Below, in pieces: positions 6,040 to 42,899 of a stretch of DNA of 64,000 nt. This DNA comes from Hypomyces perniciosus (Eukaryota > Ascomycota > Sordariomycetes > Hypocreales > Hypocreaceae). Positions within the stretch are counted from its first letter, which is position 1, and each line of letters starts with the position of its first letter. The stretch covers positions 1,318,705-1,382,704 of the forward strand of contig SPDT01000008.1 of assembly GCA_008477525.1 (NCBI GenBank). Direction: 5' to 3'. A program made the translations under genes and the position numbers. The notes beneath the pieces were generated by a model that was not told the origin of the DNA, did no database searches, and saw nothing but the letters and a program-made list of their open reading frames with translations.

Positions 6040-6427
6040 TGTATTATAACCCGACTATTATAAGAATGTGATATAGTATATACCTGGGGGAACCTTGGAT
6101 AAATAAACCAATTAGCATTAGATTACTTAGGTTACTATAAACTATAAAGTAATCCTAGTAAACTAATAAAAGGATTGACTATAGATTGTTAAGAAAATAA
6201 ATATAATTTAAGGTAATCTAAGATTATTCCCTTTATATATATATAACTGGCTTGTTATTTATTTAATATAGTTATTTAAATAGTTATTAATAATTGCATT
6301 TACTAAAACTGCCTATTCTATAGAATTGTGACTATATTACCCTGCTTAGTATTTATCCCTGACCTCTCTGTCAATATAGACCCACGAACCTCGGTTTATC
6401 CCTTAAAAATCAACCCGGATCATTACA
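6040..6427 (+). repeat. Gypsy 3' LTR (about 388 bp)
   Basis: The segment begins TGTATTATAACC and ends ATCATTACA, so it has TG...CA ends with imperfect inverted termini. It directly follows a polypurine tract (AGGAGGGGGAT) and the remains of a chromodomain integrase. It is less AT-rich than its surroundings, so it may be younger or escaped part of the mutation. I did not find the matching 5' LTR in the window. Confidence 0.65.
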
Positions 6428-8492
6428 AGGGGCAGGGGGTATTGTCCTGCTTAAAGGGGGGGGGTCCTTAGATCTAGGCCCTAAAAGCAGTGGGAGATCT
6501 GGCCAGGGCGGCTTAAGGAGCTCCTCCTTTAAATGCACTGGGTTTAGGCTTAGGGGCAGGGGGGGCAGGGTTCCTTTTTTAGAATTCTTAGGTCCTGAGT
6601 TCTCTGATGCTTTTGAGTTATTCTTTAATAGTATATACTTTTACGCTGTCTTTAATAGTCGGGCGTATATAGCAGTTTAAAGTATTAGATTAATAAGGTT
6701 TAAGGCAGTTAGTATATTAGGTAGGGTTATTGCAGTTTTTATTTTTATTAGTGTATTAAAAAGCAGGCTTACTGCATTTCTTGCAGTATATAGTTTTGGT
6801 GTATCTTTAAGGGTTATAGAAGTTAAGGTACCTATTATATTAGGTTACCTATACCTTTTAGGTCTAGAGCTTTGCTAGGGCTAAGCAGTTAAAGAGTTTA
6901 AATCTTATTTTAACTTCCTTTCTGAAAAAGATAAAGTAGTAGTAAGTGTTAGTAGTCTTGCTAAAAAGGGCCTTCTGGCAAAAGATTAAGGGTTCTTTAA
7001 ACCTAGCGCTCCCTTAAGCCTTAATCGGGACTAGCGCGTTAATAAGGAAAGTGCTTAAGGTGTTAGTATAGTATTTAAGGACGCTTTATATAAGAAAACT
7101 CCTTTATTTGTATGCCTCCTTAATCCTTAAGCCGCTAGCTTCCGCAGTTAGGCCTAAAGCAAAGATCGCTTTCTTAATCTTATTATTCTTAGCTTATAGT
7201 ATAAAGCTAGATTTTATTTCTTAAAAGTAAATAATATTCTCTTTATTAAGCTTTTTAATTTTAATAACTTTTTATTTAACTTTAATAACAGAAATCTTTT
7301 TTTAACTATAGTTTAGCAGGACTTACAAAAAGATTCTATTATTAAGTTTTTTAATTATTATATTTTATTTTTAGGTTTTAGTTTTTATAATAAAGGCTAG
7401 CCTTTTATTATTTTATAAAGTGAAATTACTTTTTTTTCCTATTAAAGGGTTTTTATTTATACCTTTAGCTGCAACTATAGCCTATATAATTTACTTTAAA
7501 CTATTAATTGCTAGCTAAGTGCTTAAGTTAGTTTAAGTTAAAGGGTAAAGTTTAGATTATTATTATTTATTGTTTTAGTAGGTTTTTTTACTGATTGGCT
7601 ATATAGTTGTTAGTTAGGCTAAAGGGGGGTTCCTGCCTAACTTTTTAAGGTTTATAAAGGCCTTTAAAGAAAGGAGGCCTTAAAGAGCGTTAATAAATAC
7701 CTTACTTACTTGCAGGGTAGCCAGGAGGTAGTGCTTTCTTTAATATTTAGCTAGGCAGTTATTAATAGTTTAGGCTACTAAAAATAAAACTTTTTATCTA
7801 GCTTTTTAAATTGCTTTAATTTCTTTAATTTAAGTGAAGATTTTATAAGCTATAGTAAACTGCTTGCTATTATTAAAGGCAGGTACTTTTATTAGCCTAC
7901 TTTAAAAGGAGGAAGAGAGGCTTTCCTAGGTCCCTTTTAAGAAAAGAGAGATATTAGGTTTTATATTAAAACCGAAATTAAGTTTAGGGATATTAGTTTC
8001 GATATATTTATTGTTAATATAGCGTTTTTAGGCGTAAGCGGGAGGACTATAGTTCCTCTTTATCTTAAGAGTAAAAGAGTGCCCTCCTTTTTAAGTCGCT
8101 GGATTACTGCCTACTTAGCAGCAGCAAGGTTTAGTTATCCCTAGTTCGCTTAAAGTTTAATAGTATTCGTTATTTTTCTTTAAATGCTTAAAAGGGGCAA
8201 GGGAGTATTATTAAGCTTATTTTTTTTAATAGCTAGTTAAAAGGTTATAAATTTTGGTAAATAGGCACCTAAAAGGTAAGGTACCTGTAGGTATAGGAGG
8301 GAAGCTTATTATTATTAACAGTAATTATAAAGTTTATATTTAAATAAATATATTACTTTAATATAATAATTTAGGCTATTATAAATAAAGGATTAAAAAT
8401 AAAAAAAATACTTTTAAAGGTATTAATTAATTTAAAAGTTAAAATTATTTAAATATTAGTATATAACTTTAAAGTTAATACTATAATAAAGG
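6428..8492 (-). mobile_element. RIP-altered Tad1-type LINE fragment (ORF1 side)
   Basis: Bases about 6580-6670 align with 37255-37345, the C-terminal part of the LINE ORF1 on the minus strand; the shared core reads GAATTC..TTGG.CC.GAG.TCTCTGATGC with C-to-T changes. The G-rich stretch 6428-6560 fits the GC-rich linker of the same ORF. From about 6700 onwards the sequence is too changed to assign to parts of the LINE, so the right edge is arbitrary and set by the next Gypsy copy. No ORF survives. Confidence 0.5.
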
Positions 8493-10010
8493 TATTAAAA
8501 GACTGGAAGCTTTAAAGCTTTTATAATATTATATAGGCCGGAATATATATATAAAAGCAACTATAGTCCCTGAAAATATAAAACTTTAAAGACTAGTAAA
8601 CTACTGCTACTATATTTAACTACTAGTTTCTGGCTTATTACCTGCTTATTTATACCTATTTCTCCTTTAAATAACTACTCTTTAACCTCTTTTACTTTTC
8701 CTTAAAGTCGCAGCCCTTTACTTAATCTATTTGCCTTAAAGAGGGTTTTTAATATATTAATCTTTTATTATTCCTAATAAAAGTAAAAAAACTATTAAAG
8801 TTAAAGATGCCTTTAGCGGCAAATAACTAGTTTACTTTTAGTAAAGAGGCTATATTTTAAATATAAAGACTTTTAAGTAAAGTTACTTTTTTAAATTATT
8901 AACCAGGCTTTTTAGATAGTATTTTACTTATAAAAAAAGAATTTAATGCTTATATTTAGTAAATAAAAGATAAATAGTAAATATATTTAAAAAGGAAATA
9001 TTTAAATACTTTTTTTTTAAAGGGAAAACCCTTTTTTTAAACTTTTAAAGATTAAAAGTTTATTGCCTATAATTAGCTTATTATATACCGCTAGTTTAAA
9101 ATAACTTTATAAAGGCAATTAAGGCAGAGTATAAATTTAAGCTTTTTATTATAAAGGAAAGTTTTAAGCAGAATTATAGACTTTTTTTACTATTATTAAA
9201 GGGCAGTTTAAATTATCCTTTAATACCTTTTTTTAAGCAGCTTATAAGATTACTTATACTGCTTCCTACTTAAAAGGAGATATTTAATAGTAATAGGTTA
9301 GTTATTTTAAAAAGAAAGGTAAATTTACAGGATTAATTACTTAAAATAAATTTTATTAATAGCTTAAAGATAATAATTACAATAGCTTAACTAAGTGCTA
9401 TAAAGTAACTTTATAGATCTTTTGCCTATATTAAGCTATTAAATAGAATTTTTAGTTATTCCTCTTTTAATTCAAGATTATTAAAAGTAAATTCCTTAAA
9501 ATAACCCCTTTATAGTTTAAGATTTATATATTTTTATAGTGCTGTTCCTTTATAATAAATAAGTAAATACTTTACTATAGAATCCCTATAACCTGGCAGG
9601 AGTTAATTTATATTAGTATAATCGCTAAGACTTTTATATATAGCTATACTAGTAATATAAATAGCTTTTAATAGGAATCTCGATTTTAAGGAAAATATAG
9701 AAAGACTAGACCTACTAGTTAATAGGGATTATACTAGGATTATACTGCTAATACTTTAAAGAATATAATAATTAAAATATCTAAAGGTTTAAGAAAATAA
9801 AGAAACCTCTTTAGCTTAGTAATTTATTAAAAATATAATAGTCTTTACTATAAAACCTCCTACTAAGCTTTTAATTATATAAAGTATAATAGTAAATACT
9901 ACTTTACTGAAAAATATAATAACCCTGTTTAGCTATACTTTACTGGCAGAAATACTAAACCTGCAGTTTATTAAGCCTAGGAATATAATTATTATAGCAG
10001 AGCGCAGTAC
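8493..10010 (+). mobile_element. Partial Gypsy copy (LTR and gag side), direct repeat of 10180-11690
   Basis: The segment is colinear with 10180-11690. It starts with an LTR-like TATTAAAAGACTGG, where the other copy has TGTCAGGAGACCGG, and ends near a shared C-rich motif around 9960-10010. Differences between the copies are overwhelmingly transitions, for example GACTAG against GACCAG and TTTAACTACTAG against CCTAACTACTAA. It lacks the protease, reverse transcriptase and integrase parts. This is direct evidence of RIP acting on duplicated DNA. Confidence 0.75.
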
Positions 10011-10179
10011 AGCTATATAGAGTATAAAGAGATAGGAAACGAAGCTTGATTCTATAAAAGAGAATATACCATAGTGGCCTCGCTATATATATATATAGCT
10101 AACATAAAGAAGAAGCTGTATATAGGCGCTTACAGCGCCTACATAATCTAACATATCGCTTATATAATATATATATTAG
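10011..10179. other. Short spacer between two Gypsy copies
   Basis: About 170 bp with higher GC than the flanks, including a GGCGCTTACAGCGCC hairpin near 10114-10128. It does not match the neighbouring copies as far as I can see. It may be the original target DNA or part of another repeat. Confidence 0.3.
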
Positions 10180-12438
10180 TGTCAGGAGACCGGAAGCTCC
10201 GGAGCTCTTATAATATCATATAGGCCAGAATATATATATAAAAGCAACTATAGTCCCCGAAAATATAAAACTTTAAAGACCAGTAAACTACTGCTACTAT
10301 ACCTAACTACTAATTTCTAGTTTATTACCTACTTATTAGCATCTATCTCTCCTTTAAATAACTACTCTTTAACCTCCTTTACTTTTCCTTAAAGTTATAG
10401 CCCTTTACCTAATCTATTTACCTTAAAAAAAGTCTTTAATATATTAATCTTTTACTATTCCTAGTAAAAGTAAAAAGACTATTAAAGTTAAAGATACCTT
10501 TAGCGGCAAATAACTAGTTTACTTTTAGTAAAGAGGCTATATTTTAAATATAAAAACCTTTAAGTAAAGTTATTCCTCTAGATTATTAATTAGGCCTTTT
10601 AAATAATACTTTACTTACAGAAAAAGAACTTAATACTTGCATTTAGTAAATAAAAGAAAAGCAGTAAATATATTTAAAGAGGAAATATTTAAATACTTTT
10701 CTTTAAGGAAAAAACCCTTTTTTTAAACTTTTAAAGATTAAAGGTTTATTGCCTATAACTAGCTTATTATATACTGCTAGTTTAAAATAACTTTATAAAG
10801 GCAATTAAAGTAAAATGCAAATTTAAACTCTTTATTATAAAAAAAAGTCTTAAATAAAATTACAGACTTTTCTTACTATTATTAAAAGGCAGTTTAAATT
10901 ATCCTTTAATACCTTTTCTTAAATAGCTTGCAAAATCACTTATACTGCTTCCTGCTTAAAAGGAGATATTTAATGGCAATAGGTTAACTATTTTAAAGAG
11001 AAAGGCAGATTTGCTGGATTAATTACTTAAAACAAATTTTATTAATAGTTTAAAGACAATAATCGCAATAGCCTAACCAAATACTATAAAGCGACTTTAT
11101 AAATCTTTCGCCTATATTAAACTACTAGACAGAATTTTCAGTTATTTCTCTTTTAATTTGAGATCGTTAAAAGCAAGTTCCTTAAAACAACTCCTTTATA
11201 ATTTAAGATTTATATATTCTTACAGTACCTTTCCCCTATAATAAATAAACAGATACTTTACTATAGAATCTTTATAACCTAGCAGGAGTTAATTTATACT
11301 AGTATAATCGCTAAAACTCTTATATATAGCTATATTAGTAATATCAATGGCTTTTAACAGGAATCTTAATCTTAAAGAAAATATAAAAAGACTAGACCTA
11401 TTAATTAACAGGGATTACATTAAGATTACACTGCTAATATTTTAAAAAATACAATAACTAAAACATTTAAAAGTTTAAAAGAATAAAGAAACCTCTTTAA
11501 CTTAATAATTTATTAGAAATATAATAGTCTTTACTATAAAACCTCCTACTAAACTTTTAATTGCATAAAGTATAATAGTAAGCACTACTTTATTAAAAAG
11601 TATAATAACCCTATTTAGCTATACTTTACTAGCAGAAATACTAAACCTGCAGTTTATTAAGCCTAAGAATACAATTACTATATAGATCCACCTATAAGAC
11701 AATTAGAGAAAATGCAGCTAAATGGCTACTAGTAATATATAAATGCCCTGTTTAATCCCGGCAGCGATATTTACATTATCTCTTTACAATAGAAAAATTA
11801 ATTAAAAAGTCTATCACCAGCTCCTAAATTTACTGCTATTTTCCCAGGTATTTCTGCTATAACTTATAGCTATACAGATATACTTATAAAGATAATTAAC
11901 GATTAAAGAGTAAAAAAGAAGTAGCTACTCTATTGCATTATCGCTAATAGCCTAAAAGACTTTATTCTAAAAAGACTTTAATTTCAGGAAGCTAATCCTA
12001 CCCTTTTATAAAAGTATAATTAATAGAATTATCCTTTAACTGGGGATTCTATCACCTTAATAGCCTCTAAAAAGCAGCTATAATAAGCTATTAAAAAAGC
12101 CCGAATAGCTTTTATATTAATAACTAAAAAAAAGCTAAAAGTTAGGTTAGAAGCTTTGGAAGACCTACTATCTCTTAACTTAAACGAAACTACTTCCTTA
12201 AAAGACTATAAGTTAGCCTTATATTTAAAATTACTTCCTATATATTATAATCTTACTAGTGTCTTCTCTGCAGAAAAAGCTGCTAATACATTAACAAGTT
12301 AATAATATACTATTAAATTAAAAGATAAAAAAATGCCTCTATAAAGTCCTATCTATAACCTAGCATTTAAAAAGCTAAAAGCTCTCTGCAAGTATTTAAA
12401 AAAAGCACTATAAAATATATAAATTTAATAGTCTATTA

Positions 12439-12830
12439 GTCTTGCAGGTGCCCCTATAATCTTTATATTAAAGAAAGGCAGTAAACTGCAAATATATATC
12501 GATTTCTATACTTTAAATAAAATAACTCGCAAAAACTGCACTCCTTTACTATTAATCTCTAAAATTCTTAACAGACTCTTATATACTAAGATTTTCACTA
12601 AACTTAATTTAAAAGATATATATTACTGGATACCTATTCGCGAAAAAAACAAATACAAAACGGCATTTTACTGCTAATATAAACACTTTAAGTGCAATAT
12701 TATACTATTCGGCCTTACAAATTCCCCTATAACTTTTCAGCAATATATTAATAATATACTATAAAATCTAGTTAATTTTATTTGCATTATATATTTTAAT
12801 AATATACTAATCTATAGCTACACCTTTAAA
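12439..12830 (+). pseudogene. Gypsy reverse transcriptase, RIP-inactivated
   Basis: The plus-strand translation reads as a Ty3/Gypsy reverse transcriptase: AGAPIIFILKKG, then YIDFYTLNKIT, then FTKLNLKDIYYWI, then FGLTNSP. The catalytic box that should read YLDD reads YFNN, so both catalytic aspartates are lost. An in-frame stop lies before the catalytic box. The pattern fits mutation of a once functional pol gene. Confidence 0.8.
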
Positions 12831-15029
12831 GAGTATATATAATATATTTACCAGGTTCTTAAAAAGTTATAAAACGCAAAGCTATATACTAATATTAATA
12901 AATGCATCTTCTATACTACTTTAATACCTTTCTTTAAATATATTATTACACTTAATAGAATTAAAATAAAATAATTATATATTTAAACTATTACTAAATA
13001 GCTAATACTTAAAAGCGTCTACAATATCCTTATATTTCTAGGATTTACAGGGTTTTACTATTACTTTATTAAAAATTACAGTAAAATTACAGCACCTTTA
13101 ACAAATCTTACTTATAAGCAGTAAAAAGGTTCTTTACAGCTAAAGTTTAATACTCTTAAAGCTTTTTAACAGCTTAAAGGAAAGTTTTTAAAGAAACCTA
13201 TTTTAATATATTATAACCTAAAAGCGCCAATTTATATAAAGATAGACGCATTAAACTATACAATTAAAGCAATACTAGCTTAATACCAGCAAAATGCCTA
13301 GCACCTTATAGTATATATATTAAAAAAGCTAAATAGTTTTAAATTATATTATTATACCCTTAATATTAAATTTCTTACTATTATAAAAGCTTTCTAAACA
13401 TAAAGACACTATTTAGCTTATATAAATATAGAGATTCAGGTTATAATAAACTATCTTAACTACTATTACTTTATAAATAAATAAAAGCTTTTACGCTAGT
13501 AGGTAAAGGCTTTTAATAAGCTAGCTCTATTTAATTTTCGCATTAAATATAGGCTAAGGAAGTTTAACCCTGCTAATACTTTATTTTAATGCTTTAATTT
13601 TTATAATCTTATTAAAATTAAAGAATTACAGTAAGGCTATATATTAATAATTTTGCAGCGTTTTTATAGTATAGAAGCCGATAGCCTATATAAACTAAAA
13701 GGATCTATAGCAGTGCACTATAATAACCAGGAATATATAAAGTTGCCTATAAATAAAAGCGTTACTTTAGTATTACTTTAAGTTAAAGGACAGGGATTAA
13801 ATACTACTTAGCAGATAACTTACCTGCAAAATATAGTAGCTAGAGTTATAACTGCTAGCTTATTAGTAATAACTAGCTAGTTCGCTACTAAGGCAAAATC
13901 TATATACTAATAGGTTTTTATACTAAGATTTTAATATTACTTTATAATAATCTAACTATTAAATACTAGGGAGTTAATTATACTTTAAAACGCATTATAC
14001 TAACCTATTATTAGTAAAGTATAAAACGAGATATTAAGCATTATATATCTATATATTACATTTACCAGACAATAAAGGCAAGAACCTATTAACCTTATAG
14101 CGAATTTACTTTATTACCAATACTAGAAAGACCCTTTAAAGAAATTTTTATAGATTTTATTATAGATTTACTAGAAATCCTAAACTATAAAGGCAAACAC
14201 CTATATAATACAATTCTTATTATCATTAATTAATATATAAAATATACCCTATATATACCTATAATAGTATATATTATAAGCAGTAAAGTTACTGACCTTT
14301 TTATAAAACATATTTATTTAATTTTTAAAACACTATAAGGAATTATCTTTAATAAAGATTGATTATTTAAATCTAGATTTTAGTAAAGTTTCTATTACCT
14401 ACTTGCTTATAAACAGTAATTTAATACTACTTTTCACTTATAGACTAATAGTTAAACTAAATAGCAAAATTAAGCCTTAAAGTATTATTTATATTCTTTT
14501 TACAGTAAATAATAAAATAATTAGCTGTAAAAATTATCTTTTATTTAATTTATATATAATAATATTAAATATTCTATAACTAGCTATTTACTAGCTTTTT
14601 TACTGCTTAGCTATAAGCCTAATACTTTAGGTTACAATAAACTAACCTACTATAAATATTATACTAATACTATTATAAAGGTAAAAGAGCTTTAAGCTAC
14701 CTGTAAAATAGCTAAATAAACACTATAACAAAGCTAAACAAAATATAAAAAGTAGTATAATACTTACTGACTTAAAAAGAAATTCGCTGTTAGCGATTAG
14801 GTATTACTTTCTATAAAATACCTAAAACTCTAGCAACTTAGCAAAAAATTTACTAAAAAGTATATTAATCCCTACTAGATTAAACACTACATTGGAATAA
14901 GTAGATTAATATACTAAATTTATCTCTTATCTTCTATTAAAATTTATAATATTTTTAATATTATAAATCTTAAACTATATTATAGCCGTAAAAGAAAACC
15001 TTTTAAGCTAATAGATTACCTTTTTAGCG

Positions 15030-15130
15030 CTAAAAAGATATTTAAAATTAAGAAAATTATTAATTATAAATATAAAGGGATATAACATTTATATTTAATT
15101 AAGTAAAAAGATTATTTAAAGACTAATAAT
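15030..15130 (+). pseudogene. Gypsy integrase-linked chromodomain remnant
   Basis: Translation gives KKIFKIKKII followed by YLIK-stop-KDYLKTNNT, which lines up with the usual chromodomain core (YLVKWKGY...NTWEP) with the tryptophan codon turned into a stop. It is the last recognisable part of the Gypsy element before the GC shift. Confidence 0.6.
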
Positions 15131-15152
15131 ACTTAATAAAAGAAAAGTAATT

Positions 15153-15341
15153 TTACTACCTTAAACAATGAGACGGCGACTTTACTACCTATTTTGGTGG
15201 TTTCTACCGTCCAAGGTAGTGGCCGTTTTGCCAGGAATCCAGCGCTGCTTTAAGGCCAGCAATCAGTCCTGTCGGCCCAGTCACCCCCTCCTGTGCCGCC
15301 TTGTACCCAACAGGTACCACATTCACACCCCACTACCTTGG
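15153..15341. promoter_or_regulatory. ACTACCT repeat cluster and 12-bp inverted repeat at the AT/GC boundary
   Basis: ACTACCT occurs at 15155-15161, 15184-15190 and 15332-15338, and its complement AGGTAGT at 15214-15220. The last two lie inside a perfect 12-bp inverted repeat, CCAAGGTAGTGG (15211-15222) and CCACTACCTTGG (15330-15341). A TTAC-N7-A match lies at 15153-15164. Four copies of a 7-mer in under 200 bp are not expected by chance. I infer recombinase-binding or terminal repeats of the DUF3435-bearing element; promoter elements of that gene are the alternative. Confidence 0.5.
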
Positions 15342-15576
15342 CCAACACGAGGATAGAGCTCAAATGTGCGCGCATCTGGAAACCTCTTTTCGCTACCCCC
15401 AGCGACGAGGGGCCACAAACCACCAGAAATGGCGGCATCACGCAGGTTGTACTTAAGGGTCGCTCGCTCCGCCTCGAGCTTGTCCTTCCCTCTGTTCCAA
15501 ATTGTGTTTTCTCCCACTGCCATGCCCACCTACAGAGTGCATCACCCTCTTCCACAAGCACCAGAAGACTTCAACT

Positions 15577-18036
15577 ATGGCGCACCGAAAGCGCCGTTTC
15601 GACAACACGTACGATTCAGATGCATCATATTTGCCTGAAGAGGAAGACGATGACGACGTCTTCAGCCAGAGCCAGGCTAACATCTCGGGCCCGGAAACAG
15701 AGGCAACGGACGTTGAGCACCTATGCTTCAATGGCGGAGACAGTGATATCGACGTCGATGTCGAAGGTCAAGGCCAGCTCTTCGGCGGCAATGTCCATCC
15801 ACCCGCGTATTACCGGCAGGCAATTGAAGAGTTTAACGAGAATGCCTACGAAACACAGGACTACAGTGACGGCAGCCTGCAGCTCCTGGATGCATGTGAA
15901 GAGCAATGGCGCCAGTACGCAGCCTGCTATATAGTTTCCCTTTTCTTTCCTAGTCACTAATACGTGTATCTCTCTGAGCTTCAGGTACTGCGATGTTCTG
16001 AGGCGCGACCCTCAAGAATGCTTCGAGTCCATCTCCAAGTCCAGCTCTCTGACGCTGCTGTACAACTTCTTCAACTGGTTACTGAACCAGAAGGTTGGCA
16101 AAGATGGCAGGAGGAAGCGAGGAACTAAAAAGAGCAGCTCCTTGAGTACATATTGGAAGGTCTTCAGGCTCGTCTTCGAGAGGGCTACAAGGGAAAAACT
16201 CGACCCAAAGATGACTCGGCGTATGCATAAGGTATGACCAGTCCCGACTATCGCTGGGGTGCAAGGCTAACCATGAAGGTGCTCCGAGACCTGGCCAAGA
16301 GACATGGGTTGAGCGACCAGAAGCGAGCGAATCGTTGCATGACGATCGAAGACCTGAAGGAGCAAATCGAGACAACGATTAGCACAACAGAGAAGTCGTT
16401 CAAACTTGGGGAACTCCGAATTCTCGCCGTTCTCTTTCTGCTGCTGCTCGCTCCAGCAGGAGCTCGTCCCACATCCATCCTACGCATCCGATTTGGAGAC
16501 ATCCAACTTTCGTTGGCAAGAGATCCAGAGGGCGGGCCTCATAAAATCTTGATTCGGTTCACCCTGGCCTTCACAAAGACATATCTCGGAGTCAAAGACG
16601 CGTATGGACACCGGGGCATCTATGGTTGACTCAACGGCGCTGATGTTGTATTAGGAAAACTTTCACACTCCCCGAGACTCTGGTTGACCCGTCTCTGCTA
16701 CTCAACCCACATGTCTTCTTATTGGGTGTTTTGTTTCGCCACCGTGCGTTTCAAGCGCCAAGTCTTATCTCGCCCGAACACCTAGCCAACCTTGACATCC
16801 ACCCAGGGGAGTCGGAGCTGCTGTTGCCACTTAGGGATGATTTGAACCGCATATACATATTCCGTCGGGCTGTTCAGACACTTACCGGGTATGAACTATC
16901 CCAGGACCAGCCTATTTCCTACCAGATGATTGCACAGTGGATCAGAAGGATTGGCGAAATTTTGGGGTTGGAGTACCCTACTATTCCCTATAACCTGCGC
17001 TATAACGCAGCCAACGAGTTCGATCGAAGTGGTTTGTCTATCCTTTCCTTTTTGCGAGGTCTTTTTGCTCACTCTGAATCTAGCTGACATCAGCGAGTCG
17101 CTGCGAAATCTCGCGCTAGATCATGCTAACTCGAATCCCTTCCAAAGGCACTATCTAGGACGCGAGGTTTGCGCAGATACATGGGCCATCATCCAACGAC
17201 AAAAACCGCAGCAGGCACTAATTAGGCAGGCTTGCAGCGTCGGCCATTCGAAAAGCAAACGGCGGCCCACGGGCCTTACAGCCGAGCAAGCAGCATCTGT
17301 CAATACTGATCCTCTGATCAAGCGATTAGAGCGAGACCTTCGGGGCTTTCCTCAAGGGTCGGAGAAATACATCAACGCTCGCCGCGAACTGAGAAATCAG
17401 AAGCAGAGGTTGAAGAGGGTACTGATGCAGGAGATTCGAGAGAAATGGACCCCCAAGCAGGCAGTTGAAGACATTGAGCAACAATTGCAAGGGACGAAAT
17501 TCACCAAGCAGGCAGCTGCAAACATAACCTGCAGCCCTCGACGGCCAGCTCAAATACGGCTCGTTGAAGCACTCACAGCCCCACTTGGCGATACACTAGA
17601 AGACCAGTATCGGCGGAGAGACAACGCTATCAACTCCATTGCTGCATACTGCCTGATAGAGGAAGGGAAGACCACCCATCACCTGAAATCTCCATCGACT
17701 AAGTCAAGCAAGCATCCCCCTGTCGACGAGCCTCCACTCAACAGCCCTCTACATCCAGCACTGATGTCTATTTTTGTCAAGACGGAGAAGGAAAGACCAA
17801 GAATGTGCTTCATATGTGTTGGCAAGGCACTCACCTTGGCACCTGATGACGAAGCTGCTGGGGATCTCATCCGCGAGTTCTATACTCCGGGGGACTTGTC
17901 CAAGCACTTCCGACGTAAACACTTATCCAACTTACGGGATGGCGATGAGATCAATTGCCAGGTTTGTGACTTGCGCCTTGACAACAAGGGACACTTTCAG
18001 AACCATGCCCTCCGAGTGCACGGAACCGTGACTTGA
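15577..18036 (+). CDS. DUF3435 tyrosine recombinase, Starship captain-like, with C-terminal C2H2 fingers
   Basis: The five-exon model is 15577-15914, 15985-16231, 16279-16601, 16655-17028 and 17084-18036, giving 744 codons without stops. All introns (47-70 nt) have GT/AG ends. The acidic N-terminus (residues 15-60) is followed by the DUF3435 domain. Tyrosine-recombinase boxes are visible: Arg258 in GARPTSIL, Arg418 in YNLRYNAA, His441 in LDHANSNPF and Tyr451 in RHYLGR as the likely nucleophile. Two C2H2 fingers close the protein (C669, C672, H702, H707 and C719, C722, H735, H740). Captains of Starship giant elements belong to this family and cut and join DNA at element ends. The ATG at 15577 begins a conserved-looking MAHRKRRFD. 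The gene points away from the AT-rich block. Not every DUF3435 gene is an active captain, so mobility is inferred. Confidence 0.88.
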
Positions 18037-19187
18037 GCTACACAATCTTACCACAGAAATATTTGTACCTTCAAATTTATGTGGATCTTCCTCAGCAGAT
18101 GATTGTTCGCTCTCCCAAAAGTCAATCTATCACGCCAATTTTTATTTTATTAGTTTAGACAGAGCCTTATTGCTTTGGAGCCTTGCTACAATTTCTCATT
18201 ATTTGATTTGGCTGCATGTACGGAGCATAGATGAATAGAATCTAGAGTTGGAGCTGGTACTACCTTCGGCCAAGTAAGCAGCTATGTCTCTCGTAGAGAC
18301 TCTGTCCACTAATTTAGATGTCGTATTCCTTGAAAGTCGGAATGTGTTTCCTCTTGTCGGAGATAGCTGCGTTGTGCTGATCAGTGCAATGTAATTCTCA
18401 ATGATACGATAAGCTTCCGCTGTGTGAGGTCGATGTGCCAAAGATACTTCACAGGCTACGCCTCGACCTGATGCACAAGTCTTCTTAGGGAGGGGAATCC
18501 TACGGGTTCATCGGAATAAGTTGCTCCGTTTCCGCTGGCAGAAAGCGCTTGGGCCGCTTGACAGTATGCACAGTTGCTGTTACACTGTATTCTGCCGGCA
18601 GTAAACACTCCCTCTTGTGTATCTAGCTTTTTATTTCTGTCATGGCATTCTGCCAGCTATTTCTTTCTCGGTGAATTGGAACACCCCGGTTGCTCTAGTG
18701 CTGTCAGGACTCTCCCCAACTGGGGAGAGCCATTGATCAACTTAAAGGGAGTTTTAATATGATTCCATGAAGCAGTGGTAAAGAATGAGACCATGAATCA
18801 TGAAGGGGTTGCACACGTTGCTGATGCTGGCACACGCACGACGGCACGTGAACCATTTTTCTGCCGGCAAAACTACAAACAACGCGATGTCCTCCCCGGA
18901 CACACCGCCTTTCTCTACCGGCAGTATTTTCTGCCGTCAGAATTCTGCCGGCAGAATTTCGACCGGCTTGACAAACTATTAGCCTGTCAGGGGTATCTAC
19001 CTGCAATGGGTTAGTTCACGATGAGCCCGTTCATTAAAAATCTGAAACTTCAAATAGGAACTGTCAGCAATGTACAAGTTATTCTGTCTCCGCTCGCTTG
19101 CCCTTGAACTTAATTGCAACACGTATTCCGAAATCGGGTGATGAGCCCACCACGAGCAAGGACTTTACAATGTGCTGAGATTTCTTG
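18037..19187. other. Non-coding stretch after the recombinase gene
   Basis: No convincing gene. Short ORFs here lack domains and overlap on both strands. The notable content is the palindromic CTGCCGGCAG cluster listed separately. Confidence 0.4.
18590..18958. repeat. Cluster of CTGCCGGCAG palindromes
   Basis: Copies or half copies of TTCTGCCGGCAGAA occur at 18590-18600, 18858-18870, 18915-18924, 18929-18940 (one mismatch) and 18941-18958. The last is a perfect 18-bp palindrome, AATTCTGCCGGCAGAATT. A related GCAGTAAAC..CCTCTTGT stretch follows the first copy and recurs near 26830. Such a cluster could be protein-binding sites or the edge of a repeat family. Confidence 0.55.
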
Positions 19188-20997
19188 ACACCTTGTCAGC
19201 ACCTGTCACACAACAACATTCATGAACTGAACCACGCGGTCCGTTGGGGGCAGGAAAACGCGATCTCCTTCGCCCCAGACAAAGCTGAGCTTCTTCACTT
19301 CCATAGGAGGCGTGGACCCAACCCTCATCATGGGGTTTCACTGGAAGGGAAACAGATCAACCCTAGCCCGCACATGAAATAGCTAGGCGTCATCCTCGAC
19401 CCCAGGCTCTCGTTCAATATCCATGTGGAAACTCGAGCGACCAAGGCTTTAAAAACGGCAAACTTCCTCAAATCTCTCAACAAAACCAGGAAGGACTCTC
19501 CCCTAATGCAGTAGCGGCCAAGGCCTGTACATTACCAGTTGCCCTGTACGGTATAGAGGTATAGAGGCTAGGCCTGGAAAGGGAGTCCAGGACCAACCCA
19601 GGCAGACTCGTGAGTACTGGCGTGAATAACCTCGCGATGAAACTGGATAAGGCTTTCAAAACAGCTGCCCGCGCCGCCCTCCCGATCTGGAAGACCACCC
19701 CTATCCCGGCGCTGCACAGAGAATCCGGCATACCACCTGCACTCACGGCACTCGCCCAGGCGAGACTGAGATGCTCTGCCCGGCTTGCAGGTCTGGATCG
19801 TTCCCACCTGCTGGCAGACAGGATTGACAGACCAGCCGTTCAGCTCCCCACAACATGGCTGCAAAGGACAGCTAGACTGGTCGGCCGATCTATCCGGCCC
19901 ACTCTCTTCGCCAAGAAGCCCCGCTTCGTCAAGGCCGGACCAAACTTCGAAGCGCTAGGGAAGGAAATGGCCACGAAGAAACACCTCGAGCTGTTAGACT
20001 CGCTGCCAGCCTCAGCAATCGCAGCTTACTCCGACGACACCCAACTCAACCAGGAATCAGGGTGGGGATTAGCGGTGTACTATAGGGCAAAGGCATACAG
20101 GAACTTTAGACCCCTTGCTAACGCAGAAGTCTATGATGCAGAAGCTACAGGTGCTGCTTGGGCTAGAACGGCAGCCGAACTTACAAGAAACGACTCCCGG
20201 GTCAGTGGTCAAAGGCCTTCTGGGCGAAGCCCCGGCCTCGTCACAAGGGGAATTCATGAGATTCCAAAGCACAGCTGAAGAACCATACCCCTGCAGGGTA
20301 TTCGTCTCCTGGGTTCCTGGTCATAAGGACATACAAGGCAATGAAACGGCGGACGAGCTGGCGAAAGAAGGGGCAGCTCTCGACCCCCCTCCCCAGCGCT
20401 GGAGCACTCTAGCATACATCAAACGATGGAAAAAAGCGGAAAGAGCCACCCTCCAAGAGAAATACTGGGAGGCAAACGCTCCGGAAAGCTACCAAGCGTG
20501 CGGCCTAGGAGCACCTACAAATCCCCCGGAACTAAAACTCCCCCGACCCATTCTACACAGGCTGCTGGCAGAGAGGTCTGGTCATGGAGACTTCCAAAGC
20601 TACCACGACCGGTTTGGCTACGATACACAGTCCCACTGCAGGTGCGGCTCCCCCAGGGAACTGGGCCACTTTGCTGAATGTCGCATGGTGAGGAGCTTCC
20701 TCCCCGAAACGCCTAGAGGCGAGGGACCCGTTATATACCTACTAGGACCCAAGGGAAGCAAGGCTTTTTAGAAACTAGTGGAGGAGGTGAACCCGACGGC
20801 CCCCCTATATAAGACATAGATTGAGAACACACATAAACTTTCCTTTGTCCAGCGAAACGCAGCGAACAGGGTCTAGACCCCTGGCTCCTACCGACCTGTT
20901 GCCCAGACGAGGCTATTATACGTACAGAGTGGTCGTAAATAGTAACAAATAAAATAAAATATAAAATAAAAAAATTAATAAAAAATAAAAGTAAATT
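19188..20997 (+). mobile_element. 5'-truncated Tad1-type LINE: reverse transcriptase end and RNase H
   Basis: The fragment begins inside the reverse transcriptase (FAPDKAELLHF near 19270) and runs through an RNase H domain (AAYSDDTQLN near 20023; VSWVPGHKDIQGNETADELA near 20308) to a zinc-knuckle-like C-terminus (CRCGSPRELGHFAECRMV near 20638). An A/T-rich tail at 20940-20997 looks like a LINE 3' end. An in-frame stop at 19380 and several frameshifts make it inactive. The RNase H motif YSDG is changed to YSDD. GC content is normal, so it is hardly touched by RIP. Confidence 0.85.
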
Positions 20998-21053
20998 AAA
21001 ACAGACGACCTGTTGGAAGTCTTGGGAGACTGTGGAAATATCATTCCAATATA

Positions 21054-22196
21054 TCAGCAAAGTAGCTTTACAGACAGACCCCTAGAATCCAGTTCCTTCT
21101 CTAGATACCGAACTGCTGTCTTTAAGCCAGACACTCCACCTTCACAAGCTCCGCTTTCAAGATGCTGGGCGAGCCCACTCAGTGTTGAGAAATGCTTCCC
21201 TTTGCCCCCCTTTATCTGCTCAGCATCAAAGCCTAGTAGACCTAAGGGACAGTGAAAGATTTTTATCGCGTGAGCGGGAGAGTTCATGTGGTCCTTAAGG
21301 CCTTGAGGGGTGGCAAACACTCGGTGTTGTGGTGGGCAGAGGGGGCAATGTAACGATGTGGTTTCTGTGTAGTTGACAAGAGCAGTATTTATCATGGAGG
21401 GTAGACTAATTTGACTGCTTGAAGGTGTCAATAGGACACCACCCGTCTCTGTGCTTGATGTCCACATTTCGGGACTTGTAAGTTCGCTGACTGGATTAGA
21501 GTCTGACAGCATCTGGCAGGTGCCGTTTGTATTGGTGATAACGCGATCGGGATCATTTTCCGTAATCATATCATTTAATCGTTCTCTATCAATACCGGAA
21601 GAACATCGCCCGCTTTCGAGATGATGGAACATCGCGGAAGGGCATGAGAAGCTAGTAGTGCAGCCATTCGAATCAGCAATGCATCGAATCTTGCTGATAG
21701 GGCGATGAGCCACTGAGTCGAGATGTTGTTGTAAAGCTTTCTCATTCTTGAATTCTCGGTCGCACCTCTTGCAGTATGGAAGTTCCGGTTCTTTAATGAC
21801 TGGCTGATGGATCTTGTACGCCAAATGTTGATCCAAGGCTTTTGAGTTCACAAAGCTTCGATCGCAATCACAGCAGCGGAACTCGACAGCTGGATGCAAC
21901 AATGCACAATGATTCTTCAACACCGCTTTGCTTTTGAAAGACATACAACAGTCACGGCAAGACCAATGGCGGGTGGCCTGTTGATGTTGAGCTAGGCTGG
22001 TCTCGTCTGCGAAATGCCTGCCACATTTCCCACAGCTGTAAGACGAGTGTGATTTCCGTTGGTGTCGATTGAGACGATTCGGCGTTCCGCAACAACTTCC
22101 ACAAAGCTCACATATAAACTTGCCAGCTCCATCCCGCCTATGCTGCGCAACCGCAACGGGATTTTTAAAGTTGCGACCGCAACTGCAGCCTGGCAT
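21054..22196 (-). CDS. Multi-finger C2H2 zinc-finger protein
   Basis: An uninterrupted frame of 380 codons runs from the ATG at 22196. The frame stays open upstream to 22352, but the downstream ATG (MPGCSCG) starts the cysteine-rich part, so I prefer it. Fingers or half-fingers: C29/C32 with H45/H50, C55/C58 with H71/H77, C80/C83 with H96/H101, C109/C111 with H124/H130, C142/C145 with H158/H164, then C-terminal units with CPLC and GLKDHMNSPAH. Spacing is irregular, as in fungal accessory C2H2 proteins, and nucleic-acid binding is likely. The gene lies just right of a LINE tail and left of a LINE insertion. Its target is unknown. Confidence 0.75.
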   Translation of the reverse strand: MPGCSCGRNFKNPVAVAQHRRDGAGKFICELCGSCCGTPNRLNRHQRKSHSSYSCGKCGRHFADETSLAQHQQATRHWSCRDCCMSFKSKAVLKNHCALLHPAVEFRCCDCDRSFVNSKALDQHLAYKIHQPVIKEPELPYCKRCDREFKNEKALQQHLDSVAHRPISKIRCIADSNGCTTSFSCPSAMFHHLESGRCSSGIDRERLNDMITENDPDRVITNTNGTCQMLSDSNPVSELTSPEMWTSSTETGGVLLTPSSSQISLPSMINTALVNYTETTSLHCPLCPPQHRVFATPQGLKDHMNSPAHAIKIFHCPLGLLGFDAEQIKGGKGKHFSTLSGLAQHLESGACEGGVSGLKTAVRYLEKELDSRGLSVKLLC

Positions 22197-22408
22197 ATTG
22201 GCAGGTGGTTGGTTTAGGACCTCTCGTCTGTCTATACAATAAGCTGCAAAGAGGATATAAAAAAGTGAAAGACGAAACATATCTAGCCTTGAATGTGGGG
22301 GATGCCGATTTTTGTAGGTAGTAACGCAGGCTGCTTCTCGAAAGCAAGCCACTATTCCGACGCAACAAAGCTATAACACTAAGCGTCTCCTCAAGACTAA
22401 TAATTAAA

Positions 22409-22422
22409 CTCCAATAGGGCAT
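22409..22422 (+). repeat. Target-site duplication, left copy (CTCCAATAGGGCAT)
   Basis: This 14-bp sequence is repeated exactly at 22742-22755 and brackets a LINE 3' fragment, the signature of target-primed reverse transcription. Confidence 0.85.
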
Positions 22423-22741
22423 TGTTTGTTTGTTTGTTTTATTATTTACGTCCACTAAGTAAACTAGTTACACAAATCCCTTATGGGCAATAGGACGTCA
22501 GGAGCCGGCGGCTTGCGCCGCTGTTCGCTGAGTTTCAATTTACAAAGGAAAAAGGGTCAATCTGGGTGGTGTCAATCTGTTTCCGCCGGGGGAGGGCCAT
22601 AAGGGTCCGCTTCCTCCACTAGTTTCTGGAAGGCCTTGCTTCCTGTAGGTCCGAGTAGGTAAGAGAGGGGGGTCTCTCCTGGGGGGATGTCTGGGAGGAA
22701 AGGCCTGACCATTCTGCATTCCGCGAAGTGGCCTTGTCTCC
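22423..22741 (-). mobile_element. 5'-truncated LINE insertion (about 320 bp) with intact TSD
   Basis: On the minus strand the fragment encodes FAECRMVRPFLPD and LLGPTGSKAFQKLVEEAD, matching the last ORF2 residues of the LINE at 19188-20997. It then has a 3' UTR and a tail of CAAA repeats, seen as TTTG repeats at 22424-22440 on the plus strand. Exact 14-bp duplications flank it. It inserted upstream of the zinc-finger gene. Confidence 0.88.
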
Positions 22742-22755
22742 CTCCAATAGGGCAT
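22742..22755 (+). repeat. Target-site duplication, right copy
   Basis: Exact copy of the 14 bp at 22409-22422. Removing 22423-22755 restores a continuous pre-insertion sequence. Confidence 0.85.
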
Positions 22756-23176
22756 ACGGAGTATACTTAAATCTAGTTGTTGCACTGCCCTCTTGTTCGC
22801 GATGTCCGCGTTCATCGTGACGTTTCATAAGTGGGACATGAGAGCTATAACCCCGCACCTGGGCCGCTCATTACGCATTAACCTTACTACACTTATGATA
22901 TTATGACATCACGAGACACAACCGAACTTAACTTTGGAAGCACTGGATCAGAAGTTTTCAATGGGATGTCACCTCGCAGGCATTTGCTGGACAAGGTGAC
23001 GTTGGAACCTAAATTTGCTGCTTGACAACTCAACAACATCACCATAAACGAACAAAATTGCATGATCACTTCCTACATCGTCAATTGATTCTTTGCGGGC
23101 CCTTAATAGATTGACCCCATTGTGACGCACATGTCGCCTCTACGTATTTGACACCGCCCTAAAGACTCCAAACCAC
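22756..23176. other. Intergenic region before the methyltransferase gene
   Basis: No gene seen. It contains a TACGGAGTA-type motif near 22755 and the presumed promoter of the gene starting at 23177. Confidence 0.35.
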
Positions 23177-24330
23177 ATGGCTACCTCTCATCTCACCTCT
23201 AGTGATGATCAAATCCTCGCATCGGACGTCCTGCCTCTTCAACAGGTTATTATAGAGTTCGTCCTGGCACGAAGCCCTGAGTTCCGCCATCTTCATGAAC
23301 TTCGCAAGCTGGCAAGTCCCCATAAACCACGAAATGGCATAAGATCTTCCCCCTGTAGATTCTAATAGTATAGTAGGGGTGGGCCAGTCCTGAAGGAGAT
23401 GCAATTTTCCAGCAGGAACGTCAAAGAGCCGACAAACCGACTCGAAGTGATAAGAATATGTTTTACAAGATGACTCTGAATATCAGCAATGAGCTGCATC
23501 AAGCTACCAAAGCATTCCGTGTCCTACAGTCAAGCGAAGAGCCTATGGCCCTGGACATGGTAATGGCACCTGGAGGTTTTTCTGCAACAATTTTGAAACA
23601 ATACCCAAACGCGAGGGAGAGAGCAATCACTCTTCCACATTCGGAAGGTGGCCACGCCGTTCAGTTCAACCATCGGAATTTAAAGTTAGATTTGCGGGAC
23701 ATTAACACCCTGGCTGGGGATTTAGGCCTTGCAGCTATTCCTGCGACGCATCGCGAAGCAGAGGGATTTACGGCTGAGAGGACACTGGATGGGGAGAGGT
23801 ATGATATCGTCATTTGTGGAGGACAGGTCACGCGAAATCAGGAGAAAGAAGAATGGCGCGAAGCGCGAGAACCTCGTCGCCTTGAACTGGCACAGCTTGT
23901 CATTGCATTGAAATATATCAAACCTAGCGGTACCTTGATCTTCGTTTCGCACAAGCCCGAGTCTCTTCATACTATTCAGACATTACGTTCCCTCTCACTC
24001 TTCTCGGACGTCAGACTATTCAAGCCCAGGAGAGCCCATGCCAAAAGGTCATCCTTTTATATAGTCGCAAAGAATGTTGAGTCAAGTGGCTCAGCAGCTA
24101 TCGAGATGGTGAAGACTTGGACCAAGGAATGGATGATCGCAACTCGAGGGACTGATGAAGAGTATGCAAAGGTTACATACATAAGCCTTGAGGATGTTCA
24201 ACACATAATTGAGGAGTTTGGCGAGAAGCTAGTTAAGCTCGGGAGGCCTATCTGGATGATACAAGCCGAGGCGTTGGAGCAGGCGATTAAGCGTTGGAGC
24301 AGGCGATTAAGCGTTAGAGCAGGCAATTAA
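23177..24330 (+). CDS. FtsJ-like SAM-dependent methyltransferase
   Basis: Two exons, 23177-23311 and 23377-24330, give 362 residues. The 65-nt intron has a GC donor (CTG|GCAAGT) and a TAG acceptor; with it the protein reads ELRKL-GWASPEGDAIF without stops. The glycine-rich SAM-binding motif is MAPGGFSATIL, at about residues 105-115, followed by YDIVICGG, a usual second motif of RrmJ/FtsJ-type RNA methyltransferases. I recognise a fungal family of this kind with ERQRADKP and FYKM before the SAM site. The substrate is unknown; RNA 2'-O-methylation is the family precedent. The last residues were changed by 20-bp repeat slippage (see next entry). The gene stands alone between transposon remnants. 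Confidence 0.75.
24271..24330 (+). repeat. Three tandem 20-bp units at the 3' end of the methyltransferase gene
   Basis: The unit GCGTTGGAGCAGGCGATTAA occurs exactly at 24271-24290 and 24291-24310, and with two changes at 24311-24330, followed by a fourth start GCGTTGGAAAGAATAA. Because 20 is not a multiple of three, each extra unit shifts the reading frame. With a single unit the frame would run into AAAGAATAA and end a few residues later. Confidence 0.85.
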
Positions 24331-25016
24331 GCGTTGGAAAGAATAAGATCAAATAGAAGGAATAGCCCGCTGTCCTATACTATTCTTCTATTCTCTAATG
24401 CTTGCTATGTATGTACGCCTATATATAACGATTAACCCATAATTTAAGAACCTCTCTAGACCTTCTAGAGCGCGTGCTTGAAAAAGCATGTAAGGCAATA
24501 CAGTAAACTTTCTTAAAATCATTTTAAGAGGTGCCTAGGGGCTATACAAGTATTGCTCCTGAAAAGCAGACGATTCGGAGCAGGCGCTGCTGCGATGCGG
24601 GCGAATTTGTGTTGTTGGCGCGACTGTAAGGCCGCCGGCAATGCAGGATTTTACCCTATCACGACACGCGTCACGACGCAATCGCGTCGCTCCTTAGTCG
24701 GCCTTGTACCAGCTATTCTACCACAAAGAGGGATTTGGGTTATGAAAACCACCAGACTCTTTGATTGTTCTAATCAAGAGACAGGGCACCCTCGGGCTCA
24801 GCCGGCTCTGAGTCAACAGCGCGGCGAGAAATCGCAGCGAAACCTGCGCGCTATTGCAAGGGCTAGAGTCCTCACATAGTTCATTTTTGCTGTCAAAACT
24901 CAAACCCAAAGTTCCAGACGGCTTCCACCCAGCTGAGTGTGGGCCTCTAGTGAGTCTGCTCCACCTTGCCCTGGTCAACGATTATGAATTGATGCGAAAG
25001 TCAAAGGCCAATGTGG
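24331..25016. other. Non-coding stretch
   Basis: No supported gene. Small ORFs near 24553-24978 on both strands show no domain. Confidence 0.35.
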
Positions 25017-26797
25017 TACAGTTAGGAGCAAAATGGCCGTCCTGTCAATACAAACTCTTTTATAAATTCATGCTGCGGGCATGTCCACTTCAGTGTCTAC
25101 CACACATAGTACATCAGCTGTACCTAGCTATTAACAGGGCTTGAATATCAGAGTTTGTGCCTTGGGCATATTAGTTCGTATTTTGCGGCAGCTTATGCAC
25201 TGTCCATAATTCACGTGATTTGTTAGTAGCTTTATGTACTTAGCAGGACTTCAAGGTTATTTTCTAGCAGCGACTTAAATGGTACGAAATCCCTAACAGG
25301 CAATTTTATATAGGGTGATTTTTAAGCCATTTTAGGCTATGCAGTAGTGACCTTGTATTGAAAAATATCTGTAGGTACATACTCAGCTAGTCATGACTGA
25401 CCAGTCTCTTTTGACCTCAACCTTCATACATACTCCGTACTCCGTACTCCGTAGTAAAACCATATTCGGCCAAAGACGTCCTTGATTCAAGAGCAAGCAA
25501 ACAAAGAAGCCTAGACTCTATGTAAACCTAGTCGCTACTGTACATAGAGAAAATGGCATCATGAACAAGCATTTATTTGTCCACTTTGGCCGCATTATCC
25601 ATTTGTTGACTTTTAGCATTCTAAAGAATTGCGCTAAAGTCTACAACAGAAAATTGTCCACTTTTTGACTTTTAACCTTATGGTTCATTGCGTTAAAAGT
25701 CGAGAGATTGTCCATTTGTTGACTTTTGGCCTTATGCACGTCTTGTGGATGAAAGCCAAAGCCGGGTGCTGGTACCGCCACAAAGACGAGGACCCTTGCA
25801 AGACGAAAATGGGATCCAAGTGAGTGTCCGTTTTCAGTCTTAGTAGGCATTATACCCCTAAGAACCCCAGAATATCCATTTACTGGCACTCTTTGGAAAT
25901 TTCAGAGAACGGACCAGAGGTACAGTAGGGTGCGAAATAAGTGTCCGCAATTTTGTATTGAACTTCTTTCCGCAGGGACTATTTTTACAGTGCTTGTGGC
26001 TGATACAGTATAACTTTGCGACGGAGTGTTAAAGTGGACTGGATTAATTTATACCCCGTACGTCTTATTTATTATCATAACCTCTTGTCAGATGCATGAG
26101 AGTGGCGATTGCAGTACAATTGAGTTTATATATTACGCTATTATAATACTAAATTGACTGAAGTATTCCCGCCGTCCTGCTTTTATAAGTCGCTACTCCT
26201 AAGCATTTAATAAGAAACCTCTAGAATTTAGAGTTTGGGAGTGATATATGCGTGTTGATTGGAGAGCTATGCTACCTACACATACTACAGTGGCGAGCAA
26301 TTATCCGGCTTGTACTCCGTACTTCGTATAGAGAGACGAATTCACTAACCTTTACTCCGTAGTCTTTATCTCTTTCTCTTATAATTGAAAATGCAAGCTC
26401 GCCTTTTAGGAATTTAATATCGCTATCTGTGGCGCCAAGGTATATTAGTGGGGAAAATTAACCTATGAATACGCATATGACCTGATATGTAATTCATTTT
26501 AAGAATATGTACCGAAGGAGAATATTTTCGTATTTTGCGTTAGCCTTAGCACTGTCTACAATTCATGTAGTTTACTGCTGGCCCTATATACTTCAAAAGA
26601 CCTTCAAGCTACTTCCTCTCCGTAACCTTGCGTGTAAAAATCCAAAATAGGCCAGGGTTTATGGGGTAATTGGGGGCTAGTTCCAGCTGTCTAGAAATGG
26701 CAATGTATATATATGTATATGGCAGGTACTGATGGTCTGTGCTTAGAAATTCTCAAAGAGTGTAAAGAGGACGGCGATTTCGCTCCCAACTGTAACA
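25017..26797. mobile_element. Candidate non-autonomous DNA transposon with TACAGTT termini
   Basis: The left end at about 25018 reads TACAGTTAGGAGCAAAATGG. The complement of the right end at about 26797 reads TACAGTTGGGAGCGAAATCG, then both continue with CCGTCCT. These look like terminal inverted repeats next to a TA target, as in Tc1/mariner/Fot1 elements. No transposase is inside. Internal parts repeat directly: about 25172-25260 resembles 26528-26615 (TCGTATTTTGCG followed by CACTGTC). A different terminus-like motif (TACAGTAGGGTGCGAAATAA) lies at about 25921. Confidence 0.45.
25594..25740 (+). repeat. Imperfect tandem repeat, unit 54-59 bp
   Basis: Units begin at about 25594, 25653 and 25707 with ATTRTCCAYTTKTTGACTTT and have a second shared block (TTGCGYTAAARTC). 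A related start lies at 25577. No coding sense. Confidence 0.6.
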
Positions 26798-28365: not shown

Positions 28366-29430
28366 TTGCGAAATAAATGGGTCGTGGCACGGCTATTTCT
28401 CCTGTAGGGTGGATTTCTCCTCCTTCGCCCAGTGTTTGATGTGGGCGAGGGTGCTTCGGCCCTTGGTAGGGGAGTGAGGGTCGCTCCTTTTTTGGCCAGT
28501 TCGTCAGCCGTCTCGTTGCCTCGTATGTCCTTATGGCCTGGGACCCATGAGACAAAAACCCTGCGTGGGTGAAGTTCTTCCGCGATGCGTCGGAACTGGA
28601 TTAACTCCCCTTGTGAGGAGGCAGGCGCTTCCCCAAGTAAACCCCTGACCACTGATGTGTTGTCGAGAAAAACATGTACTTCGCTGATTCTGGGGTCGCC
28701 CCTCGCAAGTCCAGCTGCTGTTTTGATCGCTTGGCTGGCTCCCGTGGCCTCTGCGTCGAACACTTCTGCATTGACGAGGGGTCCGAAGCTCTTGTGGACT
28801 CTCTCCCTGTAGTACACAGCCGTTCCCCAACCTGACTTGCCGTTAAGCTGGGAGCCGTCCGAGTATGCTGCGACTGCTGTGGCTGGCAGTGAGCTTATCA
28901 GTTCAAGGTGTTTTTGTGTAGCCATTTCTTTCCCTAGCTCTTCGAACTTTGGATCTGCTTCGACGAAGCGGGGTTTCTTTGCGAAGAGGGTAGGTCTGAT
29001 GGACCGGTCGACCAACAGGGTGGCTCTCTGCGGGCGTCTCAAGGATAACTGTGCGATTAAGCTATCAATGTTCTTGGCCAGAGGGTGTGCACAGCCAAGG
29101 CCCGCAAGCCGCGCCGAGCACCTAAGTCTTGCCTGGGCGAGAGCGTGAATGCGGGCGGGATGTCAGACTCTCTGTTTGGTAATGGGATGGGAGTGGTTTT
29201 CCATACCAGGACAACGGCGCGAGCAGCCATCTTGAAGGCCCTGTCCAGCTTCGCTGAGAGGTTGTTTACGCCGAACCACCTCATGTGCGCGCTAGGGTTG
29301 ATCTGCTTTCCCTTCAGAGTGACTCCCTGGTAAGGGACGAATCCTCGTCTTCTGTAGAAGTATGGAAGTTGGACTTTGTCCAGGGCGAAGGATAACGCAT
29401 TTTCCGCCCCCACCGAACCTCTGAGTCTAA
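28366..29430 (-). mobile_element. Internally deleted LINE fragment: RT end and RNase H
   Basis: The minus-strand frames encode the same protein as the LINE at 19188-20997: ALSFALDKVQLPYF, then the RNase H motifs AAYSDGSQLN (intact here) and VSWVPGHKDIRGNETADELA. About 70 residues are missing between the two reverse-transcriptase parts near 29280. The 3' end is lost at about 28366. It interrupts the right arm of the inner inverted repeat, so it arrived after that repeat formed. Confidence 0.82.
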
Positions 29431-29459
29431 AAGGAGCTGAAGGGAGGAAGGTAGAGATA

Positions 29460-32760: not shown

Positions 32761-32887
32761 GATTTCGTACTACATAGGTCTCTCAGCGGGGAAATGATGG
32801 GGTGTTTACCCAGGAGGCAGATACGATCAATGTCTAGGTCTGGAAATGGAAGCTGCCCTTCCGCCCACCCAAAAAGAGTTTTATCAT

Positions 32888-37413: not shown

Positions 37414-37439
37414 TTATCGAACCATTAGACCAAGCCAGC

Positions 37440-39840: not shown

Positions 39841-39846
39841 GGGAGA

Positions 39847-42895: not shown

Positions 42896-42899
42896 TTCT

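Follow-up and report, generated by a model that had tools for sequence, protein, structure and literature searches.

A probable Starship left end in dead repeat DNA of Hypomyces perniciosus

The window analyzed here forms the final 64,000 bases of contig C7 (SPDT01000008.1; 1,382,704 bases) of Hypomyces perniciosus, whose genome comprises 44.0 Mb in 23 contigs. An initial annotation of this DNA had proposed the left end of a Starship giant element, with its inward-reading captain gene, inserted in a dead repeat. Paralogous copies, empty sites and a shared terminus bore this proposal out, and we consider it very probable that the boundary is the left (5') end of a genuine multicopy Starship inserted in dead repeat DNA. 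Published accounts describe Starships as large elements that carry a DUF3435 captain at their 5' edge, lie between direct repeats and have empty sites (PMC12153272; PMC12506042). The element in the window is a new example of this previously known kind of element. Its left part spans 15157-64000 on the + strand (48.8 kb up to the contig end), is identified by a terminus conserved at 7 loci, plus one with 2 mismatches, and by blocks common to two other elements, A and B, and its right end is expected beyond the contig end.

The junction, the shared terminus and the empty sites

The boundary was sharp. One-kb windows wholly left of the edge had a GC content of 0.18-0.34 and the first ones wholly to its right 0.51-0.52, while the index (product minus substrate) of repeat-induced point mutation (RIP) was +1.05 over 1-15150 and -0.44 to -0.51 in three right-hand blocks. 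The switch in gene content and RIP index falls on one base, and the edge position is the TTAC at 15153-15156. The annotation had let the RIP DNA end at about 15165; the sharp edge was confirmed, but it lies about 10 bp further left. The left flank (1-15152) is AT-rich, RIP-type dead repeat and probably a remnant of a long terminal repeat (LTR) retroelement, as judged from its GC content, its RIP index, at least 32 other copies of its last 259 bases and a weak Tf2-type SH3 match. That match (SH3_Tf2-1, E 6.7e-4, under the Pfam cut-off, at approximately 14795-14980; two of six frames tried) was the sole hint of Gypsy; the annotated insertion into a dead Gypsy element thus held for the dead repeat but weakly for the Gypsy name.

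A genome search with window 14900-15500, in which 40 of 123 candidates were scored and which therefore gives minimum counts, yielded at least 63 matches, the window itself included. The left-hand repeat had at least 32 other copies, 31 of them ending at window 15154-15158, and the right-hand DNA had at least 7 other copies beginning at 15134-15153; chance A/T runs extend the match of some copies by up to 20 bases to the left. The remaining matches were one left flank (C3:2190k) and at least 22 short secondary matches within the repeat. The junction joins two repeated sequences that are found separately elsewhere in the genome. The case that the annotation had named against an insertion, a boundary present in all carriers of the remnant, was absent: the 31 other copies match only to the junction, and one paralog, L008, continues as repeat.

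Seven terminus loci were read: the window, C8:4180k, C3:5029k (element B), C3:2190k, C5:1592k, C8:1155k and C4:678k. All seven carry the 5' terminus, T or A followed by TACTACCTTAAACAATGAGAC, behind AT-rich left flanks, and the six flanks outside the window had RIP indices of +0.84 to +1.10. When the genome was searched for TACTACCTTAAACAATGAGAC with up to 3 mismatches, the seven loci were recovered exactly, together with C14:781k at 2 mismatches, and a reversed control pattern had zero matches. As in other Starships, a precise 5' boundary is conserved across different insertion sites. Element A (captain at C3:4420.9 kb) gave no terminus in the same search. The C3:2190k copy is truncated and retains the first 664 bp only, and C14:781k matches 351 bp of the 14900-15500 query at 82%. 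The C8:4180k copy, which runs from C8:4180169 to the contig end at 4186231, has a frameshifted captain and is likewise cut by a contig end. The first 70 bp of the element also hold an inverted repeat of 8 bp, which is close to chance expectation by our own estimate and was dropped.

Unoccupied dead-repeat paralogs, the empty sites expected of a Starship, were found within the genome for 4 of the 7 elements, for the left side only. Flanks of 118-150 bp align with them up to (T/C)TAC (ungapped in three cases, with one 1-base gap in the fourth), after which the paralog runs on as repeat; alignment scores were 172-264, compared to at most 84 in 100 shuffles each. Searches of the flanks by blastn at about 60% identity were too permissive, giving masses of AT-rich chance matches, and only the shuffle-controlled realignments were retained. 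The empty site of the window (paralog L008) reads TTAC followed by TAATATTA, that of C3:2190k TTAC followed by CTTTTTAG, and that of C4:678k TTAC followed by CTTAAATT. For C5:1592k the paralog reads CTAC followed by TAGCGTAA, and a second paralog CTAC followed by CAGTATAA; a C to T change by RIP would turn this CTAC into TTAC.

The junctions themselves read TTAC in 6 of 7 cases and ATAC in one, and with (T/C)TAC in the empty sites of four elements the common target core is TTAC (15153-15156, + strand, in the window). A target core could thus be read from DNA alone, from seven junctions and the empty sites of four elements, for one captain family in one genome. The annotation had also pointed to a TTAC-N7-A match at 15153-15164. 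The match is present and its TTAC is the target, but the N7-A part was rejected as target evidence because it sits inside the element's own conserved end; the A occurs in 2 of 4 empty sites.

All seven insertions lie in AT-rich DNA. We counted 123,686 runs of 24 A/T in the 44 Mb, and 272 in the 24,150 bases of the seven flanks, which puts the AT-rich share at roughly 11 Mb or 25%; this figure is calibrated on the same seven flanks, and run densities differ by more than a factor of ten. A preference for such DNA is suggestive only (0.25^7, about 6e-5; 0.4^7, about 0.002), and the bias would be equally expected from selection against insertions in genes. Starships have already been reported in AT-rich DNA and within other transposons (PMC12134995, PMC11623301), in one account without a clear pattern (PMC12134995), so that this aspect is not new.

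The captain recombinase

An intact DUF3435 recombinase pointing away from the boundary had been annotated, and the reading frame agrees. The captain gene (15577-18036, + strand) encodes a DUF3435 tyrosine recombinase of 745 aa with C-terminal C2H2-like Cys/His motifs, in five exons (15577-15914, 15985-16231, 16279-16601, 16655-17031 and 17084-18036) whose four GT-AG introns, spliced by inference, leave an uninterrupted, stop-free frame. The profile match covers positions 1-418 of 418 (E 4.6e-108). The start codon at 15577 lies 420 bp inside the element; as in Starships generally, the first gene from the 5' edge is the captain, pointing inwards. Its residues R258, K295, Y415, R418, H442 and Y452, which include the catalytic set expected of a captain, were invariant in 26 sequences; in a second set of 26 sequences, the H and the Y were only nearly invariant. 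The predicted model of a captain homolog resembles Cre. Among solved protein chains, there was no sequence match to the captain at E up to 1.

The nearest homologs were DUF3435 proteins of Metarhizium brunneum (P0001, 73%) and Hirsutella minnesotensis (P0002, 68%), with others in Tolypocladium; P0001 and P0002 form a clade with the captain (support 100/99). An Aspergillus fumigatus homolog (P0106) was 39% identical. Genome-wide, 34 DUF3435 exon matches (33 above the cut-off) fell into about 15 loci by our own grouping, 7 of them in the captain family of the window; the same captain family is present at seven places in the genome. The captain frame is uninterrupted in the window and in element B and frameshifted in C8:4180k. 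DUF3435 loci outside the family are also located on C12, C16, C22, C23, C4 and C3, and one DUF3435 gene, at C8:2075248-2076543, is full of internal stops, as expected for a RIP-killed captain. Just 3' of the captain, at window 18590-18956, there is a cluster of palindromic CTGCCGGCAG-type motifs that is kept in the copies read there (L010, L013, L014 and L049) and resembles TTTCTGCC near the terminus.

In the mechanism that we propose, the captain, as a Cre-like tyrosine recombinase, would recognize the element's own end and the TTAC core of the target, which here would have been a repeat already killed by RIP. Strands would be exchanged at TTAC, the whole element would insert, and TTAC would stay at the junction. 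The 48.8 kb to the right, with the captain, nested retroelements and the RecQ-like helicase, EST1-like, FtsJ and zinc-finger genes, would travel along as one unit.

Cargo, right end and alternative explanations

The annotated view that the genes to the right are cargo was supported by blocks common to the two other elements, the last 3 kb of the window included. Element B matches the window over 15152-22422 and 22746-25382 at 95.5-98.1%, over 25380-25953 in inverted orientation, and over 37671-45496 at 98.6%, and element A matches it over 34982-37071 and 37433-45499 at 98-99%. Both elements match window 45300-54300 over its full length at 99%, and window 61000-64000 at 89%. The cargo block common to A and B (37433-64000) accordingly stands at 98.6-98.8% to 45.5 kb (in B from 37671), then at 99% and finally at 89%, and holds a stretch without a demonstrated match, 54301-60999, for which the only query, of 20 kb, gave a list of matches that lacked even the known ones to A and B. 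Between 26.8 and 37.4 kb the window is not collinear with B, and 28394-33335 is inverted in A at 95%. Past the window's end A and B stay 99% alike, to C3:4563266 in A and, through a 3-kb stretch, to C3:5097921 in B. Provided that each forms a single unit, the minimum lengths are 68.6 kb for B and 142 kb for A, and the element in the window measures 48.8 kb up to the contig end; these are large cargo-carrying units of tens of kb, as Starships are. The window's element looks mosaic, with 99% identity to A and B at 45.3-54.3 kb, 89% at 61-64 kb, and A and B 99% alike beyond. The last part of C3 (4.42-5.36 Mb), which holds A, B and many cargo paralogs, looks like a nest of such elements.

Movement of this DNA as one unit, and a right end with its own TTAC, are what we infer from these blocks and from the left junction. 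If the Starship reading is true, the right end would read TTAC and then the second half of the dead repeat, about TAATATTAAATTAATTT for the window copy. The right end, the second direct repeat and the total length were not found in the window, where contig C7 stops at 64000 and the left TTAC is the only one. No dead-repeat continuation was seen downstream of C5:1592k or C4:678k, with 40 of 121 and 40 of 97 candidates scored, respectively, so that a flank may have been missed. RIP-like DNA was also absent from 22 probes of 40 bases each, 12 placed downstream of C4:678k and 10 downstream of C3:2190k; their lowest GC content was 0.28.

Other explanations can be set against these data. Only the first part of the element is common to all copies, C3:2190k keeps just 664 bp, and the sampled parts of the C4:678k and C8:1155k interiors differ, all of which would suit a small captain-only unit (a crypton-like element or a captain indel) beside ordinary host DNA. 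A crypton-like element, however, is a few kb in size and holds little besides its recombinase, and we rejected it here: on C3, another captain of the family is followed, in the same order, by copies of window 15152-25953, 37671-45496, 45300-54300 and 61000-64000, and other family elements share tens of kb of the DNA behind the captain with its order preserved. We regard a captain-only unit of either sort as highly improbable. The least credible explanation is that the edge is the breakpoint of a segmental duplication or translocation and not a transposon end. Elements A and B are separated by about 0.6 Mb of the same contig and have more than 26 kb in common with the window, as duplication might leave them; yet the same first base occurs at seven loci behind different flanks, four of these flanks continue at TTAC in unoccupied paralogs, and for the left edge the empty-site alignments refute such a breakpoint.

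A further alternative accepts the left end of a genuine Starship and holds that this copy is derelict, its right end lost or the element immobile. The unseen right end, the frameshifted captain of C8:4180k, the truncation of C3:2190k and the reduced match of C14:781k would all agree with decay in this family, but in the window the captain frame is unbroken and the RIP index stays below zero across the element. We think a derelict copy unlikely, while giving it some weight.

Several features lie within the cargo. A dispersed repeat nested in the element (19228-20969, + strand) has many partial or full-length genome copies at 74-92% among the matches listed. Family profile scans identified a C2H2 zinc-finger open reading frame (ORF; 21054-22370, - strand), an FtsJ-like methyltransferase ORF (23377-24330, + strand), a RecQ-like helicase split into several exons or pieces, with DEAD, Helicase_C and RecQ_Zn_bind matches (30004-32769, - strand), inside the block that is inverted in A, a non-LTR retroelement ORF with endonuclease and reverse transcriptase (34978-36873, - strand), and an EST1-like DNA/RNA-binding protein ORF (49607-51376, - strand) whose nearest homologs are mostly in Trichoderma. 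In all, 29 window ORFs were scanned against Pfam. Eight scored above the cut-off (the zinc finger, FtsJ, two retroelement-type pieces, three RecQ-like helicase pieces and the EST1-like protein), one was a sub-threshold FTA2 match, and 20 had no match. Accessory genes (NLR, PLP, FRE and DUF3723) are common in Starships and are not required; none was among the 29 ORFs scanned, and introns and the unsampled parts leave room for them. A scan of the window against Rfam had no hit at gathering score.

Copy comparison and relation to known Starships

The captain ends at C8:1155k (C8:1155702) and C4:678k (C4:678660) agree at every base for at least 1,843 bp, counted from TACTACC. Since these ends are identical while the flanks are unrelated, the sequences fit recent transposition. 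The two are not simple copies of one another where sampled, because a 3-kb segment that their interiors have in common reaches only 92% identity and lies in different surroundings; the segment occurs elsewhere too, and sampling was thin. It is possible that captain ends have been swapped between different cargo. Differences among copies were not dominated by RIP: of 20 changes private to the window, 3 were G to A after T and 0 were C to T before A.

Taken further, these data could reflect a burst of one recently active Starship family that uses RIP-killed repeat DNA as a safe landing site, escapes RIP though duplicated, and swaps its captain end between different cargo hulls. The RIP-type flanks at 7 of 7 loci, the two 100% identical captain ends with differing sampled interiors, and the 99% blocks beside an 89% stretch of one element can be cited for it; we offer it tentatively, as possible but doubtful. 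The puzzle behind it is that RIP has heavily destroyed the repeats of this genome, yet closely similar multicopy giant elements are without a RIP signature. In Verticillium dahliae, most transposons inside Starship regions were reported without a RIP signature (PMC12289983); in other fungi multi-copy Starships are reportedly RIP-degraded, while some species accumulate copies (PMC12153272).

By target motif, the Hephaestus and Phoenix families each fit in part. The canonical target given for the Hephaestus family (HhpA) is TTAC(N7)A (PMC12153272). Our element resembles it in the inward DUF3435 captain at the 5' edge, the TTAC junction and a tyrosine where Cre has H289, and differs in that N7-A is present in only 2 of 4 empty sites; the likeness to HhpA is one of description, not of sequence comparison. 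Janus, a Phoenix-family Starship of A. fumigatus, has the predicted target A(N3)TTACTA(N2)A(N15)CT (PMC12153272). TTACTA is found in the window's empty site and at 6 of 7 junctions, where the TA may be the element's own, whereas TTACCT stands in two of the four empty sites, and the positions further out in the motif generally fail. The described captain of Sanctuary and the DUF3435 captain carried by Horizon (PMC12506042; PMC9594970) are also comparable: 786 aa compared to 745 here, a Cre-like fold, comparable catalytic residues and a C-terminal DNA-binding part. The residue order and Y-x-x-R motif of our captain fit those of the Sanctuary and HhpA captains (PMC12506042). However, Sanctuary and Horizon come from other hosts and are known in full, direct repeats and empty sites included, whereas here the left end alone is seen.

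A literature search by title and abstract, with most subscription journals outside its coverage, found no description of the window's element. We rate the interest of this Starship family as moderate; it lies in the copy number and the set of target sites. Elsewhere in the genome, contig C2 shows, from its start, long A/T runs at intervals of about 2.9 kb (133, 3037, 5942, 8848, 11752 and 14655), which is a tandem array with a 2.9-kb unit.
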